Positions 18,288 to 33,250 of a DNA stretch of 43,494 nt are shown piece by piece. The DNA comes from an uncultured Bacteroidota bacterium (GTDB taxonomy: Bacteria; Bacteroidota; Bacteroidia; JABEUT01), in assembly GCA_903916255.1 (NCBI GenBank), contig CAIWVW010000002.1, positions 1 through 43,494 on the forward strand, in the 5' to 3' direction. Both the position numbers and the translations under genes were made by a program. The notes below the pieces were generated by a model. It was not told where the DNA came from and ran no database searches. It saw nothing but the letters and a program-made list of their open reading frames with translations. The first letter of the stretch is position 1. Every line of letters starts with the position of its first letter.

Positions 18288-18848
18288 ATGACAAAAACAC
18301 TCCGGCAATATGATGCGGCTGTTAAATCGGCAAAGGATATCTTCATGAAGAAGATGTATGACTATGGTACAGCCTGGCGCATACTCCGCACTTCCTCCAT
18401 TACCGACCAGGTGTTTATCAAAGCCCAGCGCATACGGAGCATTGAAGAAAAAGGAATGCAAAAGGTGGGTGACGATATTAACGGAGATTTTGTCGGAATC
18501 TATAACTATGCTGTAATTGCACTCATTCAATTGCACATGAAGGAGGATACCCGTACCGAGATTCCTGCCGATGAAGTAGAAAAACTGTTTGATATGCAAA
18601 CAGGGGCCTGCCGCCAACTTATGCAGGATAAGAACCATGATTACGGCGAAGCGTGGAGGGAAATGCGCATTTCATCCCTTACCGACCTTATATTAATGAA
18701 ACTTATGCGCATCAAGCAGATTGAAGAACATAAGGGGCAAACCCTTATTTCCGAAGGGATTGATGCCAACTATTACGACGTGATGAATTATGCTATATTT
18801 GCGTTAATACGTTTAACCGAAAAAGTGCAGCATGAAGAGAATCGTTAA
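18288..18848 (+). CDS. DUF1599 family protein with internal duplication
   Basis: This 186-residue cytoplasmic protein is made of two similar halves, about residues 9-84 and 103-180. Each carries the pattern DYG-x-AWR-x-(M/L)R-x-SS-(I/L)-TD, then a K-x-x-R-I-x-x-IEE helix, and ends in YNYA/MNYA-(V/I)-(I/F)-ALI. This duplicated form is typical of Bacteroidota DUF1599 proteins, which are linked by domain studies to nucleotide metabolism; the reaction is not known to me. It is the first gene of the operon and overlaps the next gene by 17 bases. Confidence 0.85.
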   Translation: MTKTLRQYDAAVKSAKDIFMKKMYDYGTAWRILRTSSITDQVFIKAQRIRSIEEKGMQKVGDDINGDFVGIYNYAVIALIQLHMKEDTRTEIPADEVEKLFDMQTGACRQLMQDKNHDYGEAWREMRISSLTDLILMKLMRIKQIEEHKGQTLISEGIDANYYDVMNYAIFALIRLTEKVQHEENR

Positions 18849-19950
18849 GATTTCGCAGGTATTAGTAGGGATACTTTTCATCTTTTCCGGGTTCGTTAAA
18901 GCCGATGACCCGGCAGGATTTACCATTAAACTGCATGAATATTTTGCCGCCGATGCCTTAAATATGCCTTGGCTCGATAAGTTCGCTTTTGCCATGGCAT
19001 TCTCTATTCCTATTATAGAAATGACCTTGGGTTTTATGCTTTTGTTGGGCAACCGTAAGAAATTGACACTTGTTCTTGTCACGTTGATGATGATTTTCTT
19101 CACCTTCCTTACATGGTACACCGCCCATTATAATAAAGTACTTGAATGCGGCTGCTTTGGCGACGCAATTCCTATGACATCCTGGCAGTCGTTTTGGAAA
19201 AATGTGGTGCTGATGGTATTTATTTTATTACTGATATTCGGTAATAAGCACATGTATTCCATTGGCGGCAAAGCTCAGAACATATTGGTGATTCTTTTCC
19301 TTGCAGGCTCCACAGGGTTTGCGTATTACTGTTATAATTATTTGCCTGTATTGGATTTCCGCCCTTATAAAGTGGGTACCGACATTAAGCAAGCTATGCA
19401 GGGCATACCTGATGAAGAGAAATTCTTCTATACACTTAAAAACAAGAAAAGCGGCGAGACAAAAGAGTTTGATAAGTTCCCTGATAATTATCAAAACGAT
19501 TGGACTTTTGTAAGCAGCCGAACCGAAATAACTAAAAAAGGTGTTGAAGCAAAAATTAAGGATTTCAATATTTCGGCAATGGCCGGAACGGATGTTACGG
19601 ATAGTATTTTGAGCGTTAAGGGAAACCAATTTTTACTTATTATGGAAACTATCACCGATGCGAATAAAGATGATGAAACCATTACTAAAATTAACGCACT
19701 CGCAAATGAATGCCTGAAAGGCCATATCGGATTTATTTGCCTTACAGCATCCGACCCGACTGCTGTTTCCGATTTTCAAAAGAAATATAAGACTGCATTT
19801 AAGTTCTTTAATACCGATGGAACTGTGCTTAAAACCATGATTCGTTCTAACCCCGGGCTTATATTGATTAAAGGCGGAGTAGTGAAAGCCATGTGGCATT
19901 ACCATTCTATTCCTGCCTATGCAGATGTAACTGCAAAATATCTCCATTAA
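18832..19950 (+). CDS. BT_3928 family protein (DoxX/MauE-like membrane protein with C-terminal domain)
   Basis: This 372-residue protein begins with a four-helix DoxX/MauE-like membrane domain (helices at about 8-24, 53-72, 77-97, 116-135). It contains the ECGCFGD motif (Cys106, Cys108) shared with MauE-like proteins that handle disulfides. After a fifth helix (about 143-163) the remaining 200 residues look periplasmic, with no CXXC pair; the fold may be thioredoxin-like (LLIMETITDAN, FICLTASDP, NPGLILIKGGVV). Role is inferred as redox or disulfide-related. The ATG lies inside the end of the DUF1599 gene, suggesting translational coupling. Confidence 0.82.
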   Translation: MKRIVKISQVLVGILFIFSGFVKADDPAGFTIKLHEYFAADALNMPWLDKFAFAMAFSIPIIEMTLGFMLLLGNRKKLTLVLVTLMMIFFTFLTWYTAHYNKVLECGCFGDAIPMTSWQSFWKNVVLMVFILLLIFGNKHMYSIGGKAQNILVILFLAGSTGFAYYCYNYLPVLDFRPYKVGTDIKQAMQGIPDEEKFFYTLKNKKSGETKEFDKFPDNYQNDWTFVSSRTEITKKGVEAKIKDFNISAMAGTDVTDSILSVKGNQFLLIMETITDANKDDETITKINALANECLKGHIGFICLTASDPTAVSDFQKKYKTAFKFFNTDGTVLKTMIRSNPGLILIKGGVVKAMWHYHSIPAYADVTAKYLH

Positions 19951-19952
19951 AC

Positions 19953-21032
19953 GTGCTGCGTTTTATCATCAAACGGATAATGCATGGGTTCCTCGTATTA
20001 TTCGGTGTGCTTGTTTTGGTGTTTTTATTATTTAATGTATTGCCGGGCGACCCTGCCCGATTGATGATGGGCCAGCGTGTAAATCAAAAATCATTGGATA
20101 TTATTCATAAAGATATGGGGTTAGATGAACCTGTTTATGCCCGCTTCTTTTTATATGTGAACGACCTTTCACCTGTCTCAATTTATAATCCAACGGTAGT
20201 TTCAAGCCATATTTATTTTGACCCTGAAAAGTACAACCATGCTTTAAAGGTTTGCAGTTTCACTCAGAACAGGGCATTGATACTGAAGTTTCCCTATTTA
20301 AGACGCTCGTATCAAAACCGCAAAAAGGTGAGTGATATTATCGCATCTGCATTGCCAAATACCGCTGTTCTGGCATTTACTGCCATTATAATTGCATCTG
20401 TATTAGGAATATTTATGGGGATAATTGCAGCCCTCTTCAAAGATTCCATTTACGATAAAGTATCTATAGTTCTTTCTGTGCTTGGATTAGCGGGTCCATC
20501 CTTTTTTACCGGATTAATAATAGCCTGGCTTTTCGGGCATGTGCTGAATAGATACACAGGACTAAATATTACGGGCAACCTCTTCATTATTGATGAAGAC
20601 GGCAACAAAGTATTGCAACTTCAGAATCTTATTCTTCCTGCCATAACATTAGGGATACGTCCGTTGGCTATCATTGTACAGCTAACCCGTAATTCCATGT
20701 TGCAGGTAATGACCAAAGATTATATCCGCACAGCATTTGCTAAAGGGTTGCCATTGCGTACTGTGGTAATGAAACATGCCCTAAAGAATATGCTTAACCC
20801 TGTTATAACTGCTATTTCAGGTTGGTTTGCCAGCCTTATTGCCGGAGCCGTTTTTGTAGAATATATATTCGGTTGGGAAGGCATCGGTAAAAATATTGTA
20901 GATGCACTTGGGCGGTTTGATTTGCCTGTAATTATGGGAGTGATACTTGTAACATCATCGCTTTTCGTAATTATTAATATATTGGTCGATATTTCCTATG
21001 GGTTACTGGACCCTAGAATAAAAAATGTCTGA
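19953..21032 (+). CDS. ABC transporter permease, DppB/OppB type
   Basis: This protein is 359 residues from a GTG start 2 bases after the upstream stop. An ATG in the same frame at 19893 would overlap the previous gene by 58 bases and add a Cys-rich, non-membrane leader, so I prefer GTG. It begins with the family's first membrane helix (RFIIKRIMHGFLVLFGV) followed by VLPGDPAR. It has five further helices and the EAA loop (YIRTAFAKGLPLRTVVMKHALKN) that contacts the ATPase. The stretch between about residues 60 and 120 is longer than usual and polar. Such permeases work as DppB-DppC heterodimers, with ATPases and a binding protein, to import peptides or nickel. None of these partners is in the window. 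Confidence 0.88.
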   Translation: MLRFIIKRIMHGFLVLFGVLVLVFLLFNVLPGDPARLMMGQRVNQKSLDIIHKDMGLDEPVYARFFLYVNDLSPVSIYNPTVVSSHIYFDPEKYNHALKVCSFTQNRALILKFPYLRRSYQNRKKVSDIIASALPNTAVLAFTAIIIASVLGIFMGIIAALFKDSIYDKVSIVLSVLGLAGPSFFTGLIIAWLFGHVLNRYTGLNITGNLFIIDEDGNKVLQLQNLILPAITLGIRPLAIIVQLTRNSMLQVMTKDYIRTAFAKGLPLRTVVMKHALKNMLNPVITAISGWFASLIAGAVFVEYIFGWEGIGKNIVDALGRFDLPVIMGVILVTSSLFVIINILVDISYGLLDPRIKNV

Positions 21033-21076: not shown

Positions 21077-21850
21077 ATGAATCGAAAGAAAATAGTAGCC
21101 GGAAACTGGAAAATGAATAAGCTTTATTCAGAAGCAGTAGAGTTGGTAGATGAAATTACCATCGCATTAAAAGATGACGAAAAAGCCGATGGGATAGTTA
21201 AAATATTGATTCCTTCGTTTCCTTATTTGCGTAAGGTGGCGCGCCATTCACACGGTATAAAGAATATGTTTACCGGCGCACAAAATTGTGCGCATGAAGA
21301 AGGTGGAGCTTTTACCGGAGAAGTATCTGCCGCAATGATAAAATCATTAGGTGTAAGCCATGTAATTATTGGACATTCGGAGCGGAGAAGTTATTTTCAC
21401 GAAACAAATGAGGACCTGAAAAAGAAAGTAAATATTGTACTTGGTCAATCTCTCACTCCCATATTTTGTGTGGGCGAATCGGAAGAAAAAAGACATGCCA
21501 AGGAACATTTTGCGGTTATTGAAAAACAGATAACCGACAGCTTGTTTCACCTGCCGGCAACAGAATTTGCTAAAGTAGTTTTGGCGTATGAACCTGTTTG
21601 GGCAATAGGAACCGGGCTTACGGCCACCAGCCACCAGGCACAGGAAATGCATTTGTTTATCCGTACCCTTATTGAAAAGAAGTATGGCAAAGAAACAGCT
21701 AACATGATTTCCATTTTATACGGAGGAAGCTGCAATGCTAAAAACGCCACCGAATTATTTGCCTGCCCTGATGTTGATGGCGGTCTGATTGGCGGAGCTT
21801 CGCTTGTTGCAAAAGATTTTATAACCATAATTCATTCGTTTCCTCAATGA
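21077..21850 (+). CDS. tpiA: Triosephosphate isomerase TpiA
   Basis: This 257-residue glycolytic enzyme interconverts dihydroxyacetone phosphate and glyceraldehyde 3-phosphate. The opening KIVAGNWKMN gives catalytic Lys and Asn. The catalytic His is in IIGHSERR, and the Glu in YEPVWAIGTG. The phosphate-binding loops SILYGGSC and GLIGGASL are present. The ATG at 21077 gives normal family length. A frame from TTG at 21041 would add 12 charged residues and is less likely. It overlaps the following gene by four bases (ATGA), so translation of the two is probably coupled. Confidence 0.97.
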   Translation: MNRKKIVAGNWKMNKLYSEAVELVDEITIALKDDEKADGIVKILIPSFPYLRKVARHSHGIKNMFTGAQNCAHEEGGAFTGEVSAAMIKSLGVSHVIIGHSERRSYFHETNEDLKKKVNIVLGQSLTPIFCVGESEEKRHAKEHFAVIEKQITDSLFHLPATEFAKVVLAYEPVWAIGTGLTATSHQAQEMHLFIRTLIEKKYGKETANMISILYGGSCNAKNATELFACPDVDGGLIGGASLVAKDFITIIHSFPQ

Positions 21851-24800
21851 AATTTTTGAAGAATATATTCTTTCTGGCGTTGTTTTTGTGTCTTGTAAAT
21901 TATTGCAACGGTCAGGGAAATCGAATGACCCAATTCGACCATGACTCTATTAAGTTTATAGATGAAGTGGAAAGTTATCTGAATACAGGGCTTGCCGATA
22001 AAAGCGGAATTAAGGATTTTATGAAAGATTTTATTATAGAATGGAAATCTCCCGCATATACTACCTATCTGAAACACGCAACCTACCGGATTGCAGATGA
22101 AATGCTGTCAAAGAAAATGCAGGTATATCCTACCTTTCAATCGTTTTTGAGCAGCATGAAGAACTTTGTAAAATCTGGTCAGTCACAGGAAAAGTTTGAC
22201 CAGTGGGATGTATGTCTTGAAAAGCAAATGAAGCAAAAACCATTTACAAACCTGAACACATATCTTTCCGTGTGCGAAAATCTTTTCGGGTCGGGCATAA
22301 TGTTTAAATCACCTACCGTTACCTGGAGTACTAACACGAATGAGTATCAGTTTAATTGCGACAGTACCCAGGAAATCATATTCGATAAACTGGATTTGAA
22401 ATGTGCCAACGAACGAAATGATACCATACTTGTTTATGGAACCAAGGGGATTTACTTTCCCATAAAAGGGACATGGAAAGGAATGGGTGGAACAACCGAC
22501 TGGAGCCGAACCGGCCTCGTTGCCGCTGATGTTTATGCTGAACTGAAAAAATATAATATTATATTTAAAGAAGGCGGTTTCTTTGCCGATTCCGTTACCT
22601 TTTGGAATAAAAATTATTTTGACCATTCCCTTGAAGGAAGGGTGATTGAACGGGACATAACAGAACCAAAAGAACGGGAAACCTATCCTCGTTTTGTATC
22701 CTACGGAAAGCGCTATTCTATTCCTAATCTCACTCCGGATGTAACCTATAACGGAGGGTTCTCCATGCGCGGCAGGCGATTTGTCGGTTCGGGTACAAAA
22801 GATGAACCTGCGCAATTAATTTTTAAACGGAATAACAAGCCATTCTTAACCACCTCTTCCCTTTTCTACGGTATTACAAAAGATAATATTACGGCTGATG
22901 ATGCCCGCATTAATTTTTCACTGGATGGGGATTCCATATTCCATCCGGATATACAAATGATATACAACATCAGCAAAAAACATATTTCCTTAATACGTTC
23001 CACACAGGGATTATCTCAAGCGCCATTCTTTGATACGTACCATAAAGTAAATATGTTTTTTGAAGAATTGTCATGGTATACCGACCAGCCTAAAATCGAG
23101 TTTCGGATGATAGAAGGCAATACGCAAACGACAGCCGATTTCGAGTCGCAGGATTTTTTCCGTCCGGAATTATATGAAAAACTGCGCGACCCTTCAGGAA
23201 TGAGCCCGATAGTGGAAATTGCCAAATACTCCAAATCCATCAATTCACGCGATTTATTGATGGACGACATGGCTTCCTTTATGCGCATCACTTCCGATGA
23301 ATTGCGGCCCATTATTTTCAGGCTCGCTATTATAGGTGTTGTAAATTACGATGTACAAACAGACCGGATACATGTGGAAGATAAGCTCTTTACTTTTATC
23401 GATAACCGTTCCGGCAAAGCCGATTATGATGTGTTGGATTACCATTCGGTAGACCCGGCTAAAAGAAGTGCCAATGATTCAACCCCTGTAAATGACTCTA
23501 CGGTGAAAGATAACGGTGTGATGAATTTAAATAACTATGATATCAGTTTAAGCGGCGTGGGTGTTGTCGATGTAAGCGATTCCCAGAATGTAATACTGTT
23601 TCCCGCCAAGAGGCACCTGGTTTTGCACCGTAACCGCGAAGTGACTTTTGCCGGAAGTATACGTGCAGGGCGTTTTGCTTTTTATGGAAAACAATTCGAT
23701 TTCGATTATGCCGATTTTAAAATAAAAATGAAAAATGTGGATTCCCTGCGCTTGTATGCCAACTCATATACAAAAGATTCCACCGGAAAATATCCTATCG
23801 TAAAAGTAAAGAGTTTGATAAGGCATTTAAGCGGAGAATTGCTAATCGATAAAACCATTAATAAATCGGGGTTGAAGTCATTAAAGCAGTATCCCATATT
23901 AATTAGCGATACCAATACATTTGTGTATTATGATACAAAGGATATTCAGAATGGAGTATATAAACGCGATAACTTTTACTTTAAACAGGACCCCTTCACC
24001 ATCGACAGTTTGGGCAGTTTTTCAAATTCAAGGCTGCATTTCGATGGTACCTTTGCTTCGGCAGATATAGTGCCTGAAATTCGCGAAACATTAAGGCTAC
24101 AGCCCGATTATTCCCTCGGGTTTGTGCATGATGCGACCGCCGATGGTATGGACCTTTACAAAGGGAAAGGCAAATTATACAATAAATTAAAGCTCAGCAA
24201 CCAGGGCTTGATTGGCGACGGAACACTTAAATATGTAACCTCGGTTTCAAAGTCCGACAGGTTTATATTTTTCCCGGATTCGATGAATGCGCGCGCCCAA
24301 AGTTTTGATGTGGCAGAACAAAAAGCGCGGCCCGAATTCCCGCAGGCCCATGGAGATACTGTGTATGAACATTGGCTCCCGAAACAAAATTTACTTTACG
24401 TAAAAGATTTACTGACTCCTTTTACATGTTACAATAAGTTTGCCACATTCCATGGCACACTCACGGTTTCCCCTGAATTACTTTCCGGCAATGGCCGAAT
24501 GGATTTCCTGAAAGCTTTTGTAACATCTGCAAATTTCAGTTTACTTCAGCACCGTGTAACATCCGATACCGCAAACTTTAATTTACGTGCATCCGATTCT
24601 GCTTCGGAAATTGGCTTCGGAACCACCAACATGAAAAGCGACATTGATTTTGAAACCCGTATAGGAGAATTTAAAAGCAATCAGAGCGGTTCACTGGTGC
24701 ATTTTTACGAGAATAAATATATAGCTTACATGGACGAATTCAAATGGTTTATGGACCAGGATGAAATTGAACTGGGCACCACCAAGAAAAAGGAAACCGA

Positions 24801-26358
24801 AACAGGGGAGGCAAAGGATATACAGCTTTCAGGAGCCAGATTTATTTCCGTTGCTCCTCATCAGGATTCGCTGCAATTCATTTCTCCGCAGGCAAGGTTT
24901 AATCTCAGGAAATGCCTTATTACGGCACACCAGGTTTCATATATCGATGTGGCCGATGCACGCATAGTGCCGGATAGTGGAAATATTACCGTGCACCGGA
25001 ATGCTTTTATGGAACCTTTAATAAATTCGACCATTACGGCCAATAAGGTTACTAAATATTATACTATTTATAAAGCAGATATAAGTATTACATCGCGGAA
25101 AAACTATTCTGGTTCGGGGCATTATGACTTTATTGACGGAGCCAAGAATAAGCGCCCCATGTATTTCAGCAATATCCATGTCGATACATCACATCAAACC
25201 ATTGCCAATACTGAAGTTTCAGATACAGCTAACTTTTCCATCAGCCCAAATTTCAGGTATAAAGGCGGGGTAACCCTGAAAGCATCCGACCCATTCTTAT
25301 ATTTTGACGGCGCCTGCCGCATCAACCACAGCTGCAATGAAATTAAAATTTCCTGGCTTAAATTCTCCGGCGAGGTCGACCCTAATAACGTACAAATACC
25401 TGTGGGTCATTCCGTGAATGATAATAATGTTCCGCTTGCCGTATCGCCTGTTATGGCCACTGCCGATTCATTCCATATATACGGCGCATTCCTGTCACCG
25501 CTTATTAATCCGAAAAAAGATATTGTTATTATTCCCGACAGCGGTTATCTGGCCTATGATGCACCTACACAGCAATACCGTATTTCGAATAAGGAAAAAC
25601 TGGTGGCACAGTCTCTGCCCGGAAATTATGTGAGCCTGGATACCCGCAAATGCATCGAATATGGTGAAGGCACAATGCACCTTGGCGATGATTTTCAGAT
25701 GGTGGATGTTAAAACTGTGGGCAACATAACGCACTATATTATTCCCGACTCGGTGGAATGCAATGTGTCGATGCTGATTAATTTCTTCTTTGACGATGCG
25801 GCTATCGATAAAATGGCAACAGATGCTGCGGCGTTCACTAATTTAAAACCCATTGATGTTTCTAATGCCGACTTTCAGAAAAACCTGCGGGAGCTTATGG
25901 GTAAAGATGAAGCGGATAAACTGATTTCGCAATTAACCCTTTATGGTACAGCTAAAAAGTTACCCAAAGAACTGCAATCGCAATTTTTCCTTAGCAATAT
26001 TAAACTCAAATGGAACAATGAAACCCACTCCTATGTTTCGGAAGGGCTTATCGGAGTTAGCAGCATTGGTAAAACCATGATAAATAAAGAAACGAACGGA
26101 GTTGTTGAAGTGCGTAAACGTAAGGGCGGCGGCGATGAATTGAATATCTATATCGAATTCGACCCGATGCACTGGTACTACTTTAATTATTGGTCGGGCT
26201 TAATGCAGGTGGTGTCTTCCAGCGATGAATTTATGAATGCCATGAATTCCGTGAAAGATGATAAAAGAAAGCAGAAAACAGATAAAGGAAGTTTCTCTTA
26301 TTCCACTGCGCCAAATACCAAGAAATCTCTGTTTCTGAAACGAATTTACGGAGAGTAA
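21847..26358 (+). CDS. Very large exported protein of unknown function (1503 residues)
   Basis: There is a signal peptide (residues 1-22, MKFLKNIFFLALFLCLVNYCNG). No lipobox, T9SS domain or membrane helix follows. Residues 25-150 look helical. From about 155 onward the chain is mostly alternating beta-strands, with motifs such as GTKGIYFPIKGTW and HRNREVTFAGSIRAGRF near 590-605. Near 453-517 lies a mixed helical segment that resembles a winged helix (RDLLMDDMASFMRITSDELR...IGVVNYDV). Two DTANF motifs occur near 905 and 1123. The long periplasmic beta-rich chain recalls OstA/LptA or TamB-like lipid-bridge proteins, but I see no diagnostic motif, so this is only a hypothesis. Its ATG overlaps the tpiA stop, and it ends 9 bases from the convergent pyrC stop. 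Confidence 0.8.
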   Translation: MKFLKNIFFLALFLCLVNYCNGQGNRMTQFDHDSIKFIDEVESYLNTGLADKSGIKDFMKDFIIEWKSPAYTTYLKHATYRIADEMLSKKMQVYPTFQSFLSSMKNFVKSGQSQEKFDQWDVCLEKQMKQKPFTNLNTYLSVCENLFGSGIMFKSPTVTWSTNTNEYQFNCDSTQEIIFDKLDLKCANERNDTILVYGTKGIYFPIKGTWKGMGGTTDWSRTGLVAADVYAELKKYNIIFKEGGFFADSVTFWNKNYFDHSLEGRVIERDITEPKERETYPRFVSYGKRYSIPNLTPDVTYNGGFSMRGRRFVGSGTKDEPAQLIFKRNNKPFLTTSSLFYGITKDNITADDARINFSLDGDSIFHPDIQMIYNISKKHISLIRSTQGLSQAPFFDTYHKVNMFFEELSWYTDQPKIEFRMIEGNTQTTADFESQDFFRPELYEKLRDPSGMSPIVEIAKYSKSINSRDLLMDDMASFMRITSDELRPIIFRLAIIGVVNYDVQTDRIHVEDKLFTFIDNRSGKADYDVLDYHSVDPAKRSANDSTPVNDSTVKDNGVMNLNNYDISLSGVGVVDVSDSQNVILFPAKRHLVLHRNREVTFAGSIRAGRFAFYGKQFDFDYADFKIKMKNVDSLRLYANSYTKDSTGKYPIVKVKSLIRHLSGELLIDKTINKSGLKSLKQYPILISDTNTFVYYDTKDIQNGVYKRDNFYFKQDPFTIDSLGSFSNSRLHFDGTFASADIVPEIRETLRLQPDYSLGFVHDATADGMDLYKGKGKLYNKLKLSNQGLIGDGTLKYVTSVSKSDRFIFFPDSMNARAQSFDVAEQKARPEFPQAHGDTVYEHWLPKQNLLYVKDLLTPFTCYNKFATFHGTLTVSPELLSGNGRMDFLKAFVTSANFSLLQHRVTSDTANFNLRASDSASEIGFGTTNMKSDIDFETRIGEFKSNQSGSLVHFYENKYIAYMDEFKWFMDQDEIELGTTKKKETETGEAKDIQLSGARFISVAPHQDSLQFISPQARFNLRKCLITAHQVSYIDVADARIVPDSGNITVHRNAFMEPLINSTITANKVTKYYTIYKADISITSRKNYSGSGHYDFIDGAKNKRPMYFSNIHVDTSHQTIANTEVSDTANFSISPNFRYKGGVTLKASDPFLYFDGACRINHSCNEIKISWLKFSGEVDPNNVQIPVGHSVNDNNVPLAVSPVMATADSFHIYGAFLSPLINPKKDIVIIPDSGYLAYDAPTQQYRISNKEKLVAQSLPGNYVSLDTRKCIEYGEGTMHLGDDFQMVDVKTVGNITHYIIPDSVECNVSMLINFFFDDAAIDKMATDAAAFTNLKPIDVSNADFQKNLRELMGKDEADKLISQLTLYGTAKKLPKELQSQFFLSNIKLKWNNETHSYVSEGLIGVSSIGKTMINKETNGVVEVRKRKGGGDELNIYIEFDPMHWYYFNYWSGLMQVVSSSDEFMNAMNSVKDDKRKQKTDKGSFSYSTAPNTKKSLFLKRIYGE

Positions 26359-29931: not shown

Positions 29932-30606
29932 ATGTATGCCGAATTTATAAATACGTTAAAAAAGGAAATCCTTTCAGGGCTGCCGGGGTGGGAGGCTCAG
30001 AAGAAAATGGCTCCCCTCGGAAGGGTGCATAGGGATTATCTCCCCCATGTGAAGGACGATGCGCGCCAGAGTAGTGTACTTATTTGGCTATACCCCGGCG
30101 GAAGTAAAATAAATACCCGCTTGATTTTACGCACCGAAGGCGGCGTACATAGCGGACAGGTCGCATTTCCGGGAGGGCAGGTGGAACAGTCGGACGGCGG
30201 TTATTGGAACACGGCCCTGCGCGAAGCAAATGAAGAAGTAGGTTTGCAAACTGATAAAATTTCATTGGTGGGTGCGCTTACCCCCTTATATATTCCGCCA
30301 AGTAACTTTTGGGTTCATCCTTTTATTGGCGCCGGTGAAAAGGCAGAGTCTGCTATTATCAGCGAAGCGGAGGTTCAAACGTATTTTGATGTGAACATAT
30401 TCCAGCTATTGCAGGAGGATGCTAAAATGGAGAAGTTGATTACGCTTAGTTCAGGCGATGAACGAATTACTCCATCCTATAACCTGGCGGGACATACCGT
30501 TTGGGGTGCCACCGCCATGATATTAAGTGAATTGGAAGAACTTATCCGCCGTACACTTGAAAAAATGGACACCCACTATATAAAACCCGAAATCCCCGAG
30601 ATTTAA
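29932..30606 (+). CDS. Nudix hydrolase, CoA-pyrophosphatase-like
   Basis: This 224-residue protein has the Nudix box near residues 82-104, from GGQVEQSDGGYW to REANEEVGL. Upstream is HSGQVAFPGG, the form found in coenzyme A pyrophosphatases (NUDT7/YeaB type), and PPSNFWVHPFIG follows. It probably hydrolyses CoA or a related nucleotide diphosphate derivative; the substrate needs testing. It is probably transcribed with nfo. Its stop codon overlaps the stop codon of the convergent T9SS gene by 3 bases. Confidence 0.88.
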   Translation: MYAEFINTLKKEILSGLPGWEAQKKMAPLGRVHRDYLPHVKDDARQSSVLIWLYPGGSKINTRLILRTEGGVHSGQVAFPGGQVEQSDGGYWNTALREANEEVGLQTDKISLVGALTPLYIPPSNFWVHPFIGAGEKAESAIISEAEVQTYFDVNIFQLLQEDAKMEKLITLSSGDERITPSYNLAGHTVWGATAMILSELEELIRRTLEKMDTHYIKPEIPEI

Positions 30607-31859
30607 TAAACCACCATCTTTTTTGTTACCGTTGAGCCGGAAGAACTGAAGGTATAGAAATAAACTCCGGGGCTCAGTGTATTTGCATTTATAATAATAG
30701 AATGCAAACCGGGACTCATCTTTGTATAGTTTTCGGTTAAAATTACTCTGCCTGTCAGGTCGCTTACATTGAAGTTTACATCAGCCAATTTGTTAATGGT
30801 ATATGTAATGGTTGACTTATCATTAAATGGATTCGGGTAGTTTTGGCTAATAATGGAGAATGGGGAGTTGATATTTTTAATTCCCAAATAGGCAACCACT
30901 GTATCTACGGTATAAATATCAATGTCCTGAAAGTAATTGGCACCATCTACCCCCGGGTGAAAGGTTACCTCATTCGTGTCGCATGGGAAAAATACATTAT
31001 TCCCCCCTTCTGTTGGAAACATTCCATACGCGGTATATTGGTTCCACACCTCGAAGCTATTTGCCACAAGCCTTTTTGAAGGGTAGGGGATTCCGGAAAA
31101 ATCGGTAGGAAGGGCCAGATAACTTGTTCCTGCGGGGAGGTTAGGGCAAGTATCATTCGTGAATGAATGATACCCGTATATAAACCAGCAACTGTCTCGT
31201 TTACTTGAGTCGCGGTAATTCACTGTAACAGCAAATCTGTATGTGCTTAATGTTAAATTACCTACATACCAACGTAAGTTTTTTATTTCATAATTGTTGT
31301 TATAACCTATAATGCTGTCGATAAACATGGTGTCTGCTAAAATATTTGGAGTAGGGTATCCATAAGCATCCACACTGTTTAGTTGGATTTCAAGTGTATC
31401 TCGTTTTGTACTAACGTTTTTCTGTATTATTGGCACATTTATATAGGCAATACCAAAGTTAACCAATAGGTCGGGGTTAATGGTAGTATCTCCTCTTGGG
31501 GTAGCGGAAGATAAACTATCGAATGCCACGGTAATAGAGTTTATGCAATCGTAGTTCATAAACATCATAGATGATGCCTTGTAACTATTAAGCGTATCTT
31601 TAGGGAAGCTGTAATATGTATTAAGAAGCTGTGCCTGGCTGTATTGGTAATTACCAATAAATTTGGCTTCATCGGCACTGTAATAATCCACCACGATTGT
31701 ATCATATAAAATAATCAGCGTATCGCCGCCTACTTTTCCTCCTTGTTGAATTCGGTGGTCGGGCTTGCCCTTAGCCGTTTGATGAAAATACGTTTGTGCG
31801 TTTACCAATGGCAAACAAAATAATATGGATAGGCAGATGGTTAATAGTGTCGTCTTCAA
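30603..31859 (-). CDS. Secreted protein with T9SS sorting domain, paralogue of the 31964 gene
   Basis: This 418-residue protein has a signal peptide (1-21, ending LPLVNA). The start codon is TTG at 31859, supported by the -7 box at 31885-31892; no ATG fits the signal peptide. The body (about 25-335) is beta-rich with many Asp and Thr residues and two Cys regions, and I recognise no domain. The T9SS type A domain begins at about residue 340 (QNYPNPFNDKSTITY) and ends TKKMVVY. It shares layout, motifs and sorting domain with the next upstream gene and so is a tandem duplicate. Unknown function, extracellular or surface location. Confidence 0.82.
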   Translation of the reverse strand: MKTTLLTICLSILFCLPLVNAQTYFHQTAKGKPDHRIQQGGKVGGDTLIILYDTIVVDYYSADEAKFIGNYQYSQAQLLNTYYSFPKDTLNSYKASSMMFMNYDCINSITVAFDSLSSATPRGDTTINPDLLVNFGIAYINVPIIQKNVSTKRDTLEIQLNSVDAYGYPTPNILADTMFIDSIIGYNNNYEIKNLRWYVGNLTLSTYRFAVTVNYRDSSKRDSCWFIYGYHSFTNDTCPNLPAGTSYLALPTDFSGIPYPSKRLVANSFEVWNQYTAYGMFPTEGGNNVFFPCDTNEVTFHPGVDGANYFQDIDIYTVDTVVAYLGIKNINSPFSIISQNYPNPFNDKSTITYTINKLADVNFNVSDLTGRVILTENYTKMSPGLHSIIINANTLSPGVYFYTFSSSGSTVTKKMVVY

Positions 31860-31884
31860 AGGATAGTGTTTAATATAGGAGCAT

Positions 31885-31892
31885 CAAATGTA
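31885..31892 (-). promoter_or_regulatory. -7 box supporting a TTG start
   Basis: CAAATGTA on the plus strand reads TACATTTG on the minus strand, 26 bases before the TTG at 31859. Confidence 0.5.
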
Positions 31893-31907
31893 CGCATAAT
31901 TACATAA

Positions 31908-31939
31908 AAAAACCCTGACAGTTTAACGTCAGGGTTTTT
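31908..31939 (-). terminator. Terminator of the 31964 T9SS gene
   Basis: A perfect 12-bp stem (31908-31919 with 31928-31939) and an 8-base loop; the minus-strand product ends in a T run. The stem starts 24 bases after the stop codon. Confidence 0.85.
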
Positions 31940-31963
31940 CTTTTATTGTTTAAAGAACGGCTA

Positions 31964-33250
31964 TTACTCGGTAATAACCATCTTCTTGGTAACTACGCTA
32001 CCATTCACATTGAATGAGTAGAAGTAAACACCAGGACTGAAGGAATTAGCGCTTAAGTTAATAACGTGTTCGCCTGCACCAGAATTGGTGTAAACGTTGT
32101 TTACCAATACTCTGCCTGTCATGTCATATACGGAGAAAGTAACATCCGATGACTTGGTAAGGCTATAGCTGATTTCAGTGTTCTTGTTGAATGGGTTAGG
32201 GAAGTTTTGGTTAACTGATAATCCATTAGCAGTAACGGTAGGAGCACCGGTAGTATATACGTCGGTAACAGAAGCTGCTACAGCATAATCTTGTTCGTAG
32301 AAGAACATGGTGTCTGTTGTGCAAGAACCTGGGCAAACATTCCATTCGTAGTTATTAGCTCCGAAAATGGTTCCGTTTGCGGTAGGAAGTGTGGTTACAA
32401 CATTGCTGTAATACAATTGCCATCCGTTAGCATAGCTGTTAACGTGAATGGTTTTGGTATCAGTGAACAAGTGACCAACAAAGGTTCCCGGGTTAGAATA
32501 ATCGTAGCTGCCGCAGGATGAACTGCAGGTGCTGAGCGGGAAACCATAACCTAATTCAAAAGTATCGGCTTTGTTACCGTTGAAGGTTACATTCACATCA
32601 AAGTGAATTGCATTTCCAGGCAAGGTGAAATTAGGAACTGCAATAGCTTCATAAAGGGTATCAAGTCCTGTGCCAGGAAGAACAAGATTTCCACCGGTGG
32701 TAGCAAATGTTACGCCGGGATAAATTGGAACCACTGCGGTGGTATAGGTTGCTCCTGTTGGGAGTCCGCTTGCAGGTAAGTTCTTAATAGTGAATACTAG
32801 GGTGTCATTGTGTCCGGAAGTATTCTTGTAAGCACATACTAACCACAGGGTATCAACAGTAACTGAAGTTGCATTGTAAGGGTTCAAGCTGCCATCGATT
32901 AATGTATCATAAGCTACATCTACTGAGTGAATCAGGTTGAAGTTTTGACGGGTAATAGCGCCATTGTTTGTATCAGCTTGGGTATAACGGCTGTTGATAA
33001 GGTCAGTAAACCAGCCTAATGAAGTGGAATATGCGGTTGCATAACCGGCATCGGTACCTGGATAGAAAAGTTGATAGTTATAAGTAGTACTGGAAGCTAC
33101 TTTTGAAACACGGTGTTTCGTTAAAGTAGGACCAACCTTTGGTTGACCCAAGTGTTGGGTTGGGCCGCCTGCATACTGCACTTGAGCCATAGCCCCAATA
33201 GTCAGTAAAGACAAGCTTAAGGAAGCAATTGTTTTAGAAATGTTTTTCAT
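31964..33250 (-). CDS. Secreted protein with T9SS sorting domain, possibly highly expressed
   Basis: This 428-residue protein has a signal peptide (1-22, ending IGAMA), a beta-rich body with Cys-containing loops (CPGSCTTD, STCSSSCGSYD) and a type A T9SS domain from about 352 (QNFPNPFNKNTEISY ... TKKMVITE). It is a paralogue of the following gene (30603-31859). Codon choice differs from its neighbours: AAC, AAG, TAC and GGT are more frequent, the pattern expected of a strongly expressed gene. It has a strong terminator, and an unusual A/T palindrome lies in its upstream region. No family is recognised. Confidence 0.85.
   Translation of the reverse strand: MKNISKTIASLSLSLLTIGAMAQVQYAGGPTQHLGQPKVGPTLTKHRVSKVASSTTYNYQLFYPGTDAGYATAYSTSLGWFTDLINSRYTQADTNNGAITRQNFNLIHSVDVAYDTLIDGSLNPYNATSVTVDTLWLVCAYKNTSGHNDTLVFTIKNLPASGLPTGATYTTAVVPIYPGVTFATTGGNLVLPGTGLDTLYEAIAVPNFTLPGNAIHFDVNVTFNGNKADTFELGYGFPLSTCSSSCGSYDYSNPGTFVGHLFTDTKTIHVNSYANGWQLYYSNVVTTLPTANGTIFGANNYEWNVCPGSCTTDTMFFYEQDYAVAASVTDVYTTGAPTVTANGLSVNQNFPNPFNKNTEISYSLTKSSDVTFSVYDMTGRVLVNNVYTNSGAGEHVINLSANSFSPGVYFYSFNVNGSVVTKKMVITE

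Follow-up and report, generated by a model that had tools for sequence, protein, structure and literature searches.

A conserved exported protein of Bacteroidota with a predicted Lpt-like beta-jellyroll fold is a candidate periplasmic lipid carrier

The window analysed here is a stretch of DNA of 43,494 nucleotides (contig CAIWVW010000002.1, assembly GCA_903916255.1) from an uncultured Bacteroidota bacterium. Its longest open reading frame (ORF), located at 21847..26358 on the plus strand and supported by the ORF call, its translation and full-length homologues, encodes an exported protein of 1503 residues from an unnamed family. An earlier sequence-only reading had described this largest gene of the region, hereafter the giant gene, as encoding a protein with a signal peptide and with neither a lipobox nor a type IX secretion system (T9SS) domain, and these statements were borne out. 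The predicted signal peptide covers residues 1-22 (21847..21912, plus strand) and reads MKFLKNIFFLALFLCLVNYCNG followed by Q; its end, ...NYCNG with cleavage before Q23, fits the Q-rule of Bacteroidota, which places a glutamine right after the signal cleavage site (PMC10653852). In 69 of 72 family members a similar leader precedes [AGS]Q, with cleavage predicted from sequence. Cysteines 15 and 20 do not stand in a lipobox context, and neither NCBIfam nor Pfam returned a match to a C-terminal T9SS sorting domain of type A or B. The hydropathy profile contains no hydrophobic helix beyond residue 40 and thus no transmembrane anchor. Elsewhere in the window, two adjoining secreted proteins (30603-33250, minus strand) end in apparent T9SS sorting domains (NFPNPFN...GVYFYSF), which suggests a type IX secretion system in this organism.

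Searches of the giant protein by sequence against Pfam, NCBIfam and the Protein Data Bank (PDB) gave no family match, but weak winged-helix hits and isolated noise. With a profile built from 26 relatives, the sole match was a weak one to the winged-helix family TFE at residues 462-503, while single family members weakly matched Fe_dep_repress, TrmB and SgrR_N. None of the 26 family members showed a Pfam match to OstA_2. By homology the protein groups into an unnamed Bacteroidota family, for which no description was found in open-access papers searched with generic terms. Comparison with a 77% identical relative yielded a proportion of nonsynonymous differences (pN) of 0.143 against a saturated synonymous value (pS) of 0.837, and the gene is under strong purifying selection. 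Because of this contrast and the full-length homologues across many families, the giant gene is not a chance ORF.

Of 30 close and class-level relatives, 28 carry the giant gene, usually as a single copy. A search of the genome collection located it in 270 stretches, of which 80 were retained, nearly all from uncultured Bacteroidetes, Flavobacteriales or Vicingaceae. One locus (L078) carries the title Verrucomicrobia and has the same neighbours as L085; it is probably a mislabelled bin. In samples taken across the phylum the gene occurred in 10 of 198 genomes and, in a second sample searched by profile, in 6 of 148, so that its distribution within Bacteroidota is wide yet patchy. At 90% completeness, the order to which the window belongs is represented in the collection by one genus.

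The structure was predicted by AlphaFold on two overlapping fragments, residues 24-800 and 560-1503, each with a 52-row alignment of natural relatives. Both models reached high local confidence (predicted local distance difference test, pLDDT, of 88.8 and 88.9), with predicted template modelling scores (pTM) of 0.75 and 0.55, respectively. Together they hold 95 strands as assigned by DSSP, 86 of them with at least four residues. An all-helical N-terminal domain of six helices (residues ~34-150; 21946..22296, all parts on the plus strand) is followed in the model by a first beta stretch of 26 strands (residues ~151-438; 22297..23160), a winged-helix domain inserted into the beta chain (residues ~439-521; 23161..23409) and a second, long beta stretch (residues ~531-1300; 23437..25746). 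The C-terminal region (residues ~1301-1503; 25747..26355) is predicted to form helices and a few long strands; its last 200 residues hold nine strands and no 26-strand outer-membrane barrel. The beta-rich chain with a helical, winged-helix-like segment, which had been proposed for residues 453-517, was thereby recovered: the insert shows the corresponding DSSP pattern, MarR-type Foldseek matches with probabilities of 0.92-0.99 and the weak profile hits described above. DNA binding is not implied, since the protein is exported.

The beta core is the better conserved part, with an identity to the window protein of ~0.35-0.55 among relatives versus 0.27-0.33 for the helical domain and the winged helix. 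On average, strands of at least six residues are amphipathic, with mean Kyte-Doolittle values of +1.07 and -0.97 for the two faces and a moment of 1.02 versus 0.69 after shuffling. Self-comparison of the profile detected an adjacent internal repeat, residues 770-823 and 861-914 (24154..24588, plus strand), with 96% probability. A larger duplication of two halves was discarded, as the long-range alignment was not significant despite short matches between 369-439 and 929-1001 and between 554-596 and 1013-1052.

Searches of the models with Foldseek pointed toward the lipopolysaccharide (LPS) transport proteins. Within the PDB, the fragment 560-1503, which contains the long beta stretch, gave the best LptA/LptC-like matches: LptC 6mit_C with probability 1.00 and a template modelling (TM) score to target of 0.64, LptC 4b54_A with probability 0.99, a TM score to target of 0.70 and a root-mean-square deviation of 2.9, LptA 2r19/2r1a with probability 1.00 and TM scores to target of 0.54-0.62, and LptD 9rpr_A with a probability of up to 0.77. 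Among the top 50 matches listed for this fragment, every non-Lpt match stayed at or below 0.21, the highest being apoB100. The fragment 24-800 matched LptC (0.98), LptH (0.96) and LptA (up to 0.93). Thus, the giant protein resembles by predicted fold the groove of the Lpt proteins, a beta-jellyroll of the LptA kind. In a library of viral models the first match was a chorein-domain (VPS13-like) protein of Tupanvirus (E 1e-4), with a moderate probability of 0.69. Chorein/VPS13 proteins are lipid bridges.

We propose, with a probability of roughly 0.52, that the giant protein is a soluble periplasmic lipid carrier with an Lpt-like beta-groove. In such a protein, exported through Sec, amphipathic antiparallel strands would stack into at least one LptA/LptC-type beta-jellyroll (beta-taco) groove, which would most likely shield a lipid's acyl chains and pass the lipid along all or part of the route from the inner to the outer membrane. 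The helical N-terminal domain, the winged-helix insert and the C-terminal cap may mediate docking to membrane partners. If the strands form one continuous roll, ~80 of them at two per 4.8 Å layer would extend over at most ~200 Å by arithmetic on the prediction, a length that might come close to spanning the periplasm. In favour of this proposal are the pLDDT values, the Foldseek matches to Lpt proteins, the viral chorein match, the amphipathic strands, the internal repeats, the usual single copy and the constraint on the gene.

Several observations weigh against the lipid-carrier proposal. The gene is missing from most sampled Bacteroidota and is therefore dispensable at the level of the phylum. 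Only 28 of the 49 long strands have a moment above that of their own shuffled version, and the loci showed no operon partner that would extract lipid from the inner membrane or insert it into the outer membrane. The pTM of 0.55 for residues 560-1503 leaves the long-range arrangement of the model uncertain. Whole-length superpositions are poor, with TM scores normalised to the query (TMq) of ~0.1, so the Lpt matches are local; by themselves, such low-TM superpositions of models carry no evidential weight. The low pTM and the local nature of the matches would also suit a beta-rich architecture that is Lpt-like locally and has an unrelated periplasmic role, e.g., in binding polysaccharide or peptidoglycan. 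Yet TonB receptors, ushers and teneurins reached probabilities of at most 0.13 among the matches listed for 560-1503, against 0.9-1.0 for LptA and LptC, and the independent viral library also placed a protein of the lipid-bridge type first, if moderately, which makes this alternative improbable.

A further point against the lipid-carrier proposal comes from profile-profile comparison. Aligned by hhalign with Bacteroidota alignments of OstA/LptA, LptC and TamB, the giant-protein profile gave probabilities of at most 2.5%, whereas LptC against OstA reached 76-82% in the same procedure. With this positive control, a sequence-recognisable member of the OstA/LptA, LptC or TamB families is ruled out. 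The sequence-only reading had suggested a lipid-transfer bridge or an LPS-transport-like component; its structural side, a groove or stacked beta-jellyrolls, gained partial support from fold prediction and Foldseek, while no relationship of sequence profiles to OstA, LptC or TamB was recovered.

The comparison with known systems is accordingly one of fold. With LptC and LptA (OstA family, PF06835 / PF13100) the giant protein shares a predicted beta-jellyroll of successive antiparallel strands (TM score to target up to 0.70), and with LptA the state of a soluble exported periplasmic protein. It differs from the E. coli proteins in being many times longer, in its winged-helix insert, helical N-terminal domain and C-terminal cap, and in a sequence without detectable homology; LptC (PF06835) has an N-terminal membrane anchor and a single jellyroll, where the giant protein has a cleavable-type leader and many more strands. 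LptD, whose jellyroll-bearing N-terminal domain was matched by Foldseek, possesses an outer-membrane barrel that the giant protein lacks. TamB and AsmA-like proteins offer a parallel in their ~1500 residues and long periplasmic beta chain, and the same genomes encode a TamB of equal length, but the giant protein has neither a TamB/AsmA Pfam match (PF04357) nor profile similarity to them. Moreover, AsmA-like proteins have an inner-membrane anchor (PMC12045153), unlike a protein with a Q-rule leader of the cleavable type and no transmembrane segment. The long beta-groove architecture is likewise shared with the repeating beta-groove proteins of the VPS13/chorein type, the top match in the viral library; these are proteins of eukaryotes and giant viruses, and the resemblance is at fold level alone, with low whole-length TM.

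The window's genome encodes OstA_2/LptA, LptC, LptD_2 and TamB separately, and the giant protein is therefore additional to them. This bears on the idea of a lineage-specific extra component of LPS export, a longer alternative to LptA that would dock on LptF/LptG-LptC and LptD. The top structural matches to LptC, LptA and LptD speak for such a role; the Lpt set, however, is already present here as well as in genomes without the giant gene, no Lpt gene lies adjacent and profile similarity is missing. We therefore consider an extra LPS-export component rather unlikely. Two TamB genes were counted by hand in 4 of 27 carriers of the giant gene versus 8 of 13 non-carriers (Fisher p 0.008), a comparison confounded by ancestry. 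TamB copy number was dropped as a clue for this reason, and because within one family (f15) the carriers and the non-carrier all have one TamB.

The main rival to the lipid-carrier proposal is a periplasmic scaffold or assembly chaperone, in which the jellyroll chain would be a structural rod or a surface binding clients, serving outer-membrane protein or T9SS/gliding assembly, and would handle no lipid. Such a function would agree with the winged-helix and helical domains, which suggest protein contacts, and with a large TPR/OmpA-like gene that adjoins the giant gene in 10 of 66 loci; in Flavobacterium, TamL/TamB may act as a scaffold or chaperone (PMC12045153). On the other hand, the best specific folds are those of LptC and LptA, two proteins with a lipid-binding groove, and absence from most sampled Bacteroidota is unlike the distribution of a core T9SS part. 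We judge a scaffold or chaperone to be somewhat unlikely.

How lipids cross the periplasm in bulk is poorly known in Bacteroidota. TamL/TamB is an essential pair in Flavobacterium, where depletion of TamL nevertheless alters outer-membrane lipids only slightly (PMC12045153). Despite its predicted Lpt-type fold, the giant protein is filed under neither Lpt nor AsmA. As a conserved, unnamed gene for an Lpt-like beta-groove protein, present or absent by lineage at the same prmA-plsY site, it is a concrete candidate for the study of lipid transport. A more far-reaching form of the lipid-carrier proposal, which we hold tentatively and consider doubtful as a whole, is a hitherto undescribed single-chain periplasmic lipid bridge of Bacteroidota, with no sequence relationship to Lpt or AsmA proteins and soluble at both ends. 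It would use a winged helix for docking or regulation outside the cytoplasm and would operate beside complete Lpt and TamB sets, possibly on a lipid other than LPS.

Immediately upstream lies tpiA (PF00121, TIGR00419; 21080..21850, plus strand, likely start ATG at 21080). The ATGA overlap noticed earlier is genuine (21847..21850, plus strand), with the TGA of tpiA at 21848-21850 and the ATG of the giant gene at 21847. It is retained in most same-genus loci (L034-L038, L100), and in other lineages prmA intervenes. Further upstream, profile matches and the locus survey identified conserved genes for DUF1599, a MauE/DoxX-like protein of the BT_3928 family and a lone OppB-type permease (18288..21032, plus strand). 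The typical order across loci is DUF1599, BT_3928-family protein, OppB-like permease, tpiA, prmA, giant gene and plsY. Among 62 loci that offered 2.5 kb or more of upstream sequence, prmA was near in 46 and tpiA in 42; prmA was near without tpiA in 14 and neither gene in 6. The proposed coupling to a glycolytic gene is thus weak, and it was rejected as a functional clue, the overlap being local to the genus.

In the window's genus (G000, G002, G004, G006 and G008) no full-length prmA was recognisable, the best match to the PrmA model being partial at 39.5 bits, against 165 bits for a real prmA; the same model matched 14 of 14 control genomes. The gene for ribosomal protein L11 methyltransferase (prmA) has apparently been lost in this genus, which accounts for the direct contact of the giant gene with tpiA and for the ATGA overlap. 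Downstream, plsY follows in 31 of 66 loci. In two genomes without the giant gene (G062, locus L187; G118, locus L194), plsY stands directly after prmA; prmA-plsY is therefore an inherited order that either accommodates the giant gene or has lost it, and plsY was likewise rejected as a functional clue. With an inherited gene order on one side and a local contact on the other, plsY and tpiA say little about function.

In the window's genome plsY lies elsewhere (G000:C102:44446-44997, locus L189), flanked by a sigma-factor-like gene on one side and, on the other, by a relative of the large TPR/OmpA-like gene, a gene type that succeeds the giant gene in other lineages. The lone OppB-type permease (19893-21032, plus strand), which neither an ATPase gene nor a binding-protein gene accompanies, keeps its place between the BT_3928-family gene and tpiA in ~40 related loci. 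A GldC-like gene (PF19937; 17803-18144, minus strand) lies upstream of the DUF1599 gene in divergent orientation and stays in place in several same-genus loci.
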